Assembly (NCBI GenBank): GCA_014728085.1
Contig: WJMF01000086.1
Coordinates: 1-43,393 of the forward strand
Direction of reading: 5' to 3'
DNA: 43,393 bases
From: Candidatus Zhuqueibacterota bacterium
GTDB lineage: Bacteria > Zhuqueibacterota > Zhuqueibacteria > Residuimicrobiales > Oceaniaggregativiventaceae
Positions 12,500-15,786 of the stretch are shown in pieces. A program made the position numbers and the translations under genes. The notes beneath the pieces are model-generated. The model saw only the letters and a list, made by a program, of their open reading frames with translations, was not told the origin of the DNA and made no database searches. The first letter of the stretch is position 1. The number at the start of each line of letters is the position of its first letter.

Positions 12500-13166
12500 T
12501 TGGGTTTTCCATCTTTGGATCATTTTACGGTCTCGGGGTCGAGAATTGTTGATTATTCCTTGCCCGAAAGAGAACGACCTATGGATTGCCTGAAAAAGCA
12601 ACATGAGGAGAGTGGCAAAATCCTTTCAACAACAAGGACAAGCCCAACGGTTATTATCCTGGATCGAAAGAGGGTAAAACAAAAGATTGAGCAACTTCCC
12701 GGGACTGAATTGCCTTCCGGCAGTCGCCAGATCGGCATATTTATAAAAAAATATCAATCTCAGTACTCTTTTAAATTTTCTGCAAGATCCAAACGACCCG
12801 GTTACTGACGATAAAATACAGAGTTTCGGTACTGCGCCGATGATAATCAGTGATTTTAACAGATTTACAGGCGGTGAACACCATTATGCCACCTCAGACA
12901 CCATCGGAATCGGCATCATGAATCGATTTGAAAACGCCAATGTCGTCTTAAAAGCCAATAGAATTTCCTACAACCACCCCATGGACAGGACCGCAATGAC
13001 GCCCGCCCTCACTTTTTACCATAATTCCTCTGTTTTCCTGCGGACAACCTATTTCAATCTTCCGGTCATGACTTTTGGCGAATTGCATGGTAACATGTCT
13101 GATTATACATCCGCGGACATTTATGCCTGTGAATCCCGTCCCTGGGACAATTCACATATCTCTTAA
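12500..13166 (+). pseudogene. Frame-broken remnant of an unidentified gene
   Basis: Two overlapping plus-strand frames look protein-like in succession: 12500-12750 (KQKIEQLPGTELPSGSRQIG) and then, after a +1 change near 12750, a frame ending at 13166 that contains LLNFLQDPNDPVTDDKIQSF, MIISDFNRFTGGEHHYATSD and LTFYHNSSVFLRTTYFNLPV. Neither has a ribosome site. The second frame has no start near its open boundary (TAA at 12744-12746). A single decayed gene is the simplest reading. It ends opposite the 3' end of the RiPP precursor (4-base overlap). Family not recognised; a chance open frame is possible. Confidence 0.3.
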
Positions 13167-13351
13167 GATCCGATTTCCTTGCAAGCGAGCAACGGTCCGC
13201 AATAACCGGACTGCAAAGGACCGCTAATCAAACCAAATGATAATTTGCAGGCTGCCAACACTACCTCTTCGGATTTGAGCTCTACCTTTTGTAATGTTGG
13301 TTTGGAGTAAGGTTTTTTGCCCGTTTGGTTGGTGATTTTTTTACCCTTCAT
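13163..13351 (-). CDS. Putative RiPP precursor peptide
   Basis: 62 residues, starting at ATG 13351 behind GGAG (10-base spacing). The leader KKPYSKPTLQKVELKSEEVV is of the K-x-Y-x-K-P-x-L-x-x-V-x-L-x-x-E-E type found before cysteine-rich cores of radical-SAM-modified peptides. The core follows VLAACK and contains three cysteines (residues 35, 51, 57) among Gly, Pro and Ser (ISGPLQSGYCGPLLACKEIG), ending in Gly-Ser. A HPr-kinase-like gene lies 1.6 kb away; such kinases phosphorylate the terminal Ser of some lasso-peptide precursors. The upstream open frame runs into this gene without a stop, so a longer read-through product is formally possible, but the ribosome site and leader pattern support this start. 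The family call is from pattern recognition. Confidence 0.6.
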   Translation of the reverse strand: MKGKKITNQTGKKPYSKPTLQKVELKSEEVVLAACKLSFGLISGPLQSGYCGPLLACKEIGS

Positions 13352-13825
13352 GATATATGCTCTCCATACCTGATTTCCCGTTCTTTCGGGGGCTCTGTCA
13401 TCTACTTTTTCAGAATTTTCTATTTGCGGTATCAGCCCCATCATCTCCACCCGAAGATGTGTGACTTGACTCAACCGGAGTTTCGGAATCGCCATATTGC
13501 ATACGAACCCCGCCGGTACACTGGCCGAATAGAGATCGCAGTTCCGGCATGGCGTGCGACGCGTCTGTTTTTTTGCCCTCACACTCAGCATAAATGTGTG
13601 CCGACCCTGGTAAAAAGTGCCCTGACACGACATCAAACAGGGACTCAGGCGGCCAAAAGCATCGACATCGCGGATGCTTATACAGCGGCTTGATACAAAC
13701 AAAGGAGCATTCGTTATGCTATCCTTTGTTAAGATACTTTCCCCTCTCCCCGGTGTTCCCGAAATGGTGATCCACAAAGTTGCCAAAAAAGCAAAAACAA
13801 TAGCAGAATTGAAGCTAAACCTCAA
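13352..13825 (-). pseudogene. Cysteine-rich fragment resembling a SPASM domain
   Basis: The frame is open from 13825 and in phase with the precursor peptide. RCISIRDVDAFGRLSPCLMS fits the first half of a SPASM domain, where Cys precedes a D-x-x-G-x-x-x-P-C turn, and TPCRNCDLYS...PAGFVC fits the second Cys cluster. No radical-SAM CxxxCxxC core is present, so at most the C-terminal part of a peptide maturase survives. A neighbouring frame also has a SPASM-like stretch (MPELRSLFGQCTGG), which suggests indels. The resemblance is suggestive only. Confidence 0.35.
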
Positions 13826-13869
13826 TTTGTTTATATACTAGGCAAAGATAAAAAATACTTGAATTATTA

Positions 13870-14511
13870 TCAAGTTTTTTTAAAAAAAGTGAAAATATGT
13901 ATAGCCGGGTCTGGTGCAATACCACCGGTATAGCGTTCGAAAATAATGCGACCCTCATGCATCACCAGTACGGCAGCGCCATGATGAGTATCCGAATAAT
14001 CCATTGCAGCCAAAAGTTTCCAATCCGATTGCAGCAACAGCCCGTCGAGAACCGCGCTGATATCAAACGGCCGCGGTCCAAAAGTCGCTTACACACCTCC
14101 GAATACCCGATAATCCCGTTCACCCTTGATTTGCTCAACCCACTGACGGTCACTGTCACGATGGGTGGGACAAGTAGTAAAAAATCCATGCAAAGCGAGA
14201 TGGCGGCCGGGATAAGACATCGAGGTGCCGGTTTCACCAACACCGTGAGAAATCACAGCCACTGGCCGTTCAGGCCGTGCCGAATCCTGATCAACCGGTG
14301 CATGCAATACCAGCGGAATTTCACGACCACGAAAAGTGTCTGTTATGGTTCGCTCCAGAATGTCAACCTGAAACTCGCCTGCAGCGATGAGGGCCTGTGT
14401 ATTCAAATCAACCGCATCACCGTTATCCTGCGCATGCAGGTGAATTCAAAAAGTAAAAACAAGACTCTGGAACAGCAACACAAACAACATGGTTTCTGAT
14501 TTGTTAATCAT
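13870..14511 (-). pseudogene. Chimeric hydrolase pseudogene (dienelactone-hydrolase-like plus serine hydrolase)
   Basis: A good start (ATG 14511 behind GGGAG) opens a signal peptide, MLFVLLFQSLVFTF, interrupted by TGA at 14446-14448. The frame continues as an exported alpha/beta hydrolase of the dienelactone hydrolase / PAF-acetylhydrolase type: DILERTITDTFRGREIPLVL, then PVAVISHGVGETGTSMSYPG. A second stop (TAA, 14089-14091) follows RVFGGV, after which RPFDISAVLDGLL still fits the same family. The frame then changes character to AAVLVMHEGRIIFERYTGG, the N-terminus of beta-lactamase-type serine hydrolases, and ends at TGA 13870-13872. The nucleophile regions of both enzymes are missing. It looks like two neighbouring genes fused by an internal deletion and then decayed. 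Confidence 0.55.
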
Positions 14512-14916
14512 ATTTCTCCCTTTCCATAGCATAGACCATTATATCGTATAATACGATATCTTTCAAAGGATAATATATTCTAATTTTTTCCCCTTCTTTG
14601 TACAACGAATATCAACTCTGGGTTTAGATTTTCAAAAACATCTTGATTATATTATGCAATTTTATTAGTTTCAACACACTTGAGCAAAATACATCTCATG
14701 GCGTTTGTCAGCATCGCGTCATAAATCAGAGAAAAAATCAATGGACACCTCTTATCGAGATTTGTGTAAAAATTTTTCAGTATCTCTGCTATAAAAAAAG
14801 CATACTTGTTTGCATCTTTTGCCACCATAGACAACTATTCAATAACCGCTTTAGATGATGATACAACTTGAATAATTTTCTCCAAAGCGTGGACCAACTT
14901 ATTGTGGATGGTATGG
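14512..14916. other. AT-rich gap with a possible PqqD-like scrap
   Basis: No intact gene. Just before and overlapping the HPr-kinase-like start, one plus-strand frame reads LNNFLQSVDQLIVDGMDV, which resembles the C-terminal helix of PqqD-type peptide-recognition proteins, but stops precede it in the same frame. A PqqD remnant would suit the context; the evidence is thin. Confidence 0.2.
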
Positions 14917-15786
14917 ATGTTTCAATACAAAGTGGCCAATACGGTCTTTCATATCATAACACCCGATCACATAAAAACGTCTGTTGATTCTGCATATGAC
15001 GATTTTCTCTGCAACGATGATCATGCGGATATCCTCATAGAAACCAGATACAACACAACACCCGATATTGAATTAGATCCCCAAAAGATTATTTTTGACT
15101 CACAGGGTAGCTGGAAGTTGTATCGAATCAACGATAAAAATGTTTTTACCACTACCACTCCCCTGCTCGGTCCCGACCCCTATCGCATTGCGGTATTTAA
15201 TGATTCCTATACCAAAGGAATAATCTATATCAATATCCCGGAAGACTGGTTTCAGAAACGCGAAGAGCTACCCGATCCTCTGGAATTTCCATTATCAGAA
15301 ATACTTATGGTCTCCTATCTGTCAAAACAGCGCGGCGTCATGTTTCACGCCTGCGGTATTCAGGATGGTACCAAAGGGTTTTTATTCAGCGGCAATTCAA
15401 CCCATGGCAAATCAACCACAGCCCAGTTATGGCAAAACCACGCAAGAATACTCAACGATGACCGTATAATTGTTCGGCGGGAAAACGGGATATTTAAGAT
15501 GTACGGTACGCCCTGGCACGGTACCTTTGCCGGTGTGGCTGCTGCTTCGGTTCGGCTGCATAAACTCTTTTTTCTGCGTCATGCCGGCAAGAATCAGTTG
15601 ACGAAAGAATCGGGTATTAAAGCGACATCCATGCTCTTTACCCGTTGTTTTCCCCCTTTTGGCAATCAAAAGGGAGTTGAATTCACCCTGGATTTTTGCA
15701 CACAACTTGCCACATCCATACCTTGCTATGATTTTGGATTCGTTCCTAATGCATCGATTATTGAGTTTATCAGAAATTCGCCTTGA
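14917..15786 (+). CDS. HPr-kinase-like protein, probable RiPP-associated kinase
   Basis: About 289 residues. SGNSTHGKSTTAQLW (near residues 158-172) is the P-loop, and RILNDDRIIVRRENG gives the Asp-Asp following strand typical of HPr kinase/phosphorylase-like proteins in peptide-modification clusters. GTPWHGTF follows, as in those relatives. The N-terminal half (FQYKVANTVFHIITPDHIK, then DPYRIAVFNDSY) is the unrelated front domain of this group, not the HPr kinase N-domain. It likely phosphorylates a peptide, perhaps the terminal Ser of the 62-residue precursor nearby. Start chosen at ATG 14917; TTG 14902 and ATG 14908 are alternatives and no ribosome site decides. It appears intact amid decayed genes. 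Confidence 0.7.
   Translation: MFQYKVANTVFHIITPDHIKTSVDSAYDDFLCNDDHADILIETRYNTTPDIELDPQKIIFDSQGSWKLYRINDKNVFTTTTPLLGPDPYRIAVFNDSYTKGIIYINIPEDWFQKREELPDPLEFPLSEILMVSYLSKQRGVMFHACGIQDGTKGFLFSGNSTHGKSTTAQLWQNHARILNDDRIIVRRENGIFKMYGTPWHGTFAGVAAASVRLHKLFFLRHAGKNQLTKESGIKATSMLFTRCFPPFGNQKGVEFTLDFCTQLATSIPCYDFGFVPNASIIEFIRNSP

Follow-up and report, generated by a model that had tools for sequence, protein, structure and literature searches.

What is a 62-residue peptide with the look of a RiPP precursor doing 1.6 kb from an HPr-kinase-like gene, on the opposite strand and amid fragments of other genes? The question is raised by the window analysed here, a stretch of 43,393 nucleotides (contig WJMF01000086.1, assembly GCA_014728085.1) from a Candidatus Zhuqueibacterota bacterium, in which a preliminary description had seen an eroding RiPP locus. 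Our answer, held with good confidence on comparative grounds, is that the locus is likely what decay and rearrangement have left of a radical-SAM/HprK RiPP cassette whose precursor and kinase remain open.

The precursor ORF (13351-13163, minus strand) looks intact and ends ...CKEIGS. The leader, the three Cys of the core and the terminal Gly-Ser, all described from the outset, are present. The leader, KKPYSKPTLQKVELKSEEVVLAACK (13244..13318, minus strand), is matched at 1.8e-11 in its own genome by a 26-column profile of 14 rows, the window leader itself being one of these rows, and leaders of relatives match the same profile at 1e-10 to 1e-14. Pfam and NCBIfam searches gave the peptide no name. 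A GGAG 10 nt before the ATG (13362..13365, minus strand) is a possible ribosome-binding site, and the TCT codon of the C-terminal Ser (13166..13168, minus strand) would specify the proposed phosphorylation site.

The HprK-like kinase, correctly described as intact, is encoded on the plus strand at 14917-15786 and comprises 289 residues. Its frame could begin at a TTG at 14902 (14902-15786, plus strand), and we placed the start at the ATG at 14917 because the homologues indicate it. The protein is 41-49% identical to the kinases of intact cassettes and keeps 29 of the 30 family-conserved residues, including all 21 invariant ones, with the P-loop GNSTHGKST and the NDDR motif retained. It reached no Pfam or NCBIfam family above cut-off, the match to PF07475 lying below the gathering score. 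The HprK P-loop and the downstream catalytic Asp region, which mark members of the HPr(Ser) kinase superfamily, are both there. The A1 profile matched the HprK chains 1jb1/2qmh at 2.9e-4 (positions 132-191), the family kinases aligning with HPr kinase of known structure over about 60 residues only; a structure model (mean pLDDT 50.7) was too poor for a fold search. The precursor and kinase genes form no operon at present.

In other genomes, complete cassettes combine a PqqD/RRE protein, a radical-SAM/SPASM enzyme, the precursor, the HprK-like kinase and an archaeal-type signal peptidase (SpI), often with an ABC exporter. Cassettes that are whole or almost so, and whose precursor and kinase are homologous to those of the window, were found at L024, L025, L003, L086, L087, L088, L090, L091, L092, L095 and L096; L024 (genome G054) and L025 (G077) belong to the same phylum, and further genomes lie outside it. 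The usual gene order is PqqD, radical-SAM/SPASM, precursor, kinase, peptidase; the copies at L092 and L093 are rearranged. The deltaproteobacterial contig L003 (31% identity) reads PqqD, radical SAM, short peptide, kinase, S24-type peptidase; the contig L002 of a KSB1 bacterium (49% identity) carries the end of one such cassette, in the order SPASM end, short peptide, kinase, S24-type peptidase, GNAT, ABC transporter. The L024 peptidase scores above the cut-off of NCBIfam TIGR02228 (archaeal signal peptidase I). For L089 and L093 the only precursors found lie at other sites of the genome, and L094 yielded no local precursor. The leaders follow the pattern YxxPx[L/I]xxVxLxxEEAVLxxCK. In a second group, the W-type, the radical-SAM genes number two or three, often with a radical-SAM/HprK fusion; such fusion proteins, of about 660-740 residues, occur at L026, L027, L028, L029, L030, L032, L033 and L038. 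The search for homologous short peptides beside HprK-like genes in other genomes, which the preliminary description had proposed as its own test, thus found them, together with the PqqD and radical-SAM/SPASM genes that it had anticipated.

Leader and kinase also go together across genomes. Leader matches at E<1e-6 occur in 13 of 388 genomes, and the kinase is present in all 13 (match 1e-42 or better; Fisher p 1e-21). In genomes G123 and G268, each with one cassette, precursors are dispersed elsewhere, which makes action in trans plausible within this precursor family. These dispersed precursors (L136-L145) have a near-constant core, CKxDxGAGPNQSxCIIPQCFNxGS; several adjoin large DUF7948/SBBP beta-propeller proteins, and one lies near a C25 peptidase.

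How general is the terminal Ser? Related precursors were gathered by leader profile or leader motif, blind to their last residue; in the 40 obtained, that residue is Ser 37 times and Thr three times. The 27 Y-type precursors, among which ten from G123 and three from G268 are near copies, comprise 24 with Ser and three with Thr (L090 twice, L096), and the 13 W-type ones all have Ser. Against a background of 9.8% Ser plus Thr at the C-termini of long ORFs (n=439), the chance of finding either residue in all of 28 cases (G123 and G268 each collapsed to one, 12 W-type used) is 6e-29, a value made optimistic by the non-independence of relatives. The last residue is P, G or R in five precursors that have a similar [YW]xxP leader and another core and whose neighbouring kinase-like genes are very divergent; terminal Ser is likewise missing from a few further divergent precursors. 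As no kinase-free precursors with the leader type under study occur in the genomes searched, the Ser/Thr contrast rests on these five precursors of another type. This pattern suggests that in the related clusters the kinase phosphorylates the last Ser or Thr of the precursor, and the proposal that the window's terminal Ser fits a paeninodin-like chemistry gains from it.

What became of the radical-SAM enzyme? Searched by tblastn with the L024 and L002 enzymes, the window yields a remnant of the SPASM domain of the cassette enzyme (residues about 262-364) at 13702-13406 on the minus strand. It lies immediately upstream of the precursor, within the open frame of the latter. A genome-wide search with the L024 enzyme located a radical-SAM half on contig C8 (C8:12399-13046, 43% identity), which covers residues 20-236 of the same reference enzyme and ends beside a tail-to-tail gene. 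Its GGEP motif is altered to GEEP. Although the draft assembly places the two halves on separate contigs, they were probably once one gene, which would have been cut between its two domains, the N half passing to C8 and the C half to the window.

Other parts of the cassette would have been lost altogether. In the window, tblastn for remnants of PqqD, SpI, GNAT and ABC genes gave only chance-level matches or an unrelated ABC-F gene; no PqqD gene was recognised between precursor and kinase, nor a PqqD remnant upstream of the C8 half. Neither a PqqD nor an SpI peptidase of the window cassette was found anywhere in the genome, whose PqqD and SpI matches lie only on C138, C39 and C20, all in other cassettes. 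The decayed material between the genes includes unrelated hydrolase fragments (about 14500-13870, minus strand), and a PAF-acetylhydrolase-like fragment at 14089..14406 (minus strand; E 7e-4, below gathering score) does not belong to the cassette. The idea of decay between two intact genes stands as regards the maturase, but the decayed pieces are the SPASM remnant and these hydrolase fragments, with no PqqD recognised. Upstream of the hydrolase fragments are two promoter-like sites with identical hexamers, TTGAAA-17-TATAAT (14674-14646 and 14566-14538, minus strand); a promoter/terminator scan gave an overall count near chance. The mechanism that we favour combines the cut in the radical-SAM gene with loss of PqqD, SpI and exporter, while precursor and kinase stay open. 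The homology, the gene order of relatives, the two enzyme halves, the unequal conservation and the Ser/Thr rule are read directly from sequence, whereas all of the biochemistry is inferred. No close relative with this very locus was found, and we count this against it, together with the opposite strands of precursor and kinase, the separate contigs of the enzyme halves, the small site numbers behind the conservation counts, and the short match of the kinases to HPr kinase of known structure with its poor model.

Are the precursor and kinase themselves already dead? A fully dead relic, in which both are out of use and mutations have yet to strike, is a serious possibility that we consider somewhat less probable than its opposite. 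Such a relic would fit the destruction of the maturase, the missing PqqD and SpI of the window cassette, the gene fragments all around, and the damage to a related cassette on contig C138. It fits less well with a kinase frame of 289 codons free of stops and frameshifts, and with the distribution of substitutions. At columns conserved in 92% or more of the intact relatives, 29/30 residues survive in the kinase, as against 38/56 in both enzyme halves taken together (Fisher p 0.002, with small site numbers and alignments of our own choosing). The N half on C8 retains 31 of 40, columns past its end being left out, and the SPASM remnant 7 of 16, four Cys being among its losses; intact enzymes treated by leave-one-out keep 64-100% of such residues (pooled 90%). 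The locus is a relic whose kinase is apparently under constraint, and we infer that kinase and precursor may still be in use.

If they are, with which partners? The same genome (G000) holds a second, W-type cassette on C138 (L036 / L157), in which PqqD, SpI, the kinase and a precursor with the ending GGGGDS are all open. Its three radical-SAM genes are damaged, one by a frameshift, one by a deletion with a frame change and one by lack of its N-terminal half. A third cassette, on C39 (L037), combines two radical-SAM genes with a divergent gene of HprK type and a precursor that is rich in Gly/Asn and ends GALG. The early suggestion of maturation enzymes elsewhere in the genome is weak: C138 is the one other PqqD/SpI/HprK cassette of the related W-type, but its radical-SAM genes are damaged as well. 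The lineage might have abandoned the radical-SAM step and kept a phosphopeptide pathway, using the PqqD and SpI of C138 in trans, which we judge rather unlikely. In its favour, the radical-SAM genes of both cassettes are broken although kinase and precursor are open, C138 still has PqqD, SpI and a kinase, precursors lie far from the enzymes in G123 and G268, and clusters for linear polyphosphorylated peptides (LPP; lpp clusters) function without a radical-SAM enzyme (PMC13381572). However, the leader of the C138 precursor is W-type, recognition across types being unproven, and retention of the two window genes may be due to chance.

A paeninodin-like lasso peptide locus, to which the HprK-like kinase, the terminal Ser and the YxxP leader might point, is very improbable: the partner in intact relatives is a radical-SAM/SPASM enzyme, and neither a lasso cyclase nor a B2 protease turned up among the genes mapped in their cassettes, so that a lasso reading is not supported. 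That a short ORF lying amid gene fragments, on the strand opposite to the kinase, should be a chance neighbour of an unrelated kinase can practically be dismissed in view of the 1e-11 leader match, its place directly after the SPASM remnant and the family-wide co-occurrence with the kinase.

Taking the decayed-cassette reading together with the relatives, we tentatively propose, as an idea with somewhat less than even prospects, a widespread RiPP family, not described until now, whose radical-SAM-modified core would carry an obligatory C-terminal phospho-Ser/Thr, precursors may be scattered and modified in trans, and the window lineage would have lost the radical-SAM step in two cassettes and kept the kinase step. 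Phosphorylation of a terminal Ser by HprK-like kinases is already known from lasso peptides, whose precursors are modified in this way by PadeK-type kinases (PMC9266682). That 40/40 precursors from radical-SAM cassettes end in Ser or, by a conservative swap, in Thr extends the rule to another RiPP chemistry, where it is directly testable, and the broken window copy would reveal which steps of the pathway can go first. To judge from these sequences, the family around the locus appears to be a novel variation on phosphorylated RiPPs. Searches of the open-access literature turned up no description of an HprK-like kinase combined with a radical-SAM enzyme in a RiPP setting.

Similar part lists have been noticed before, as the SynChlorMet models show. 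The SynChlorMet cassette (NCBIfam ScmC-ScmF) brings together HprK-like, PqqD-like and radical-SAM/SPASM proteins, the same part list as here, judged by family names. It is the nearest named cassette, with scores far below the NCBIfam cut-offs for ScmC, ScmD, ScmE and ScmF (kinase 21-40 of 125 bits, PqqD 37 of 100, radical SAM 52-95 of 400).

LPP clusters join an RRE, an HprK-like kinase, an SpI and an ABC exporter, their core set including an NTP transferase and no radical-SAM enzyme (PMC13381572). The likeness to our family extends to the archaeal type of the SpI, the MsbA-like exporter and the YxxPx leader motif (PMC13381572); the kinase, RRE, SpI and exporter are all present in intact relatives such as L024, and the window retains the kinase only. 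The YxxPxL of the window leader fits the RRE-binding motif reported for lasso and LPP leaders, whereas the fuller LPP precursor motif YxxPxVLxHQxIxFETxxS is not matched by the leaders here (PMC13381572). Moreover, intact cassettes here have a radical-SAM/SPASM gene, which is outside the LPP core set, and the LPP kinase phosphorylates S3 of the core (PMC13381572), whereas the C-terminal residue would be the target here. With the paeninodin type (PadeK/ThcoK/PsmK) the family shares an HprK-like kinase and a conserved terminal Ser in the precursors (PMC9266682); it differs in its radical-SAM/SPASM enzyme and SpI, and in the three relatives that end in Thr. The window locus is not evidently a lasso cluster, and resembles the phosphopeptide systems of the paeninodin and LPP kinds, apart from the addition of a radical-SAM enzyme.
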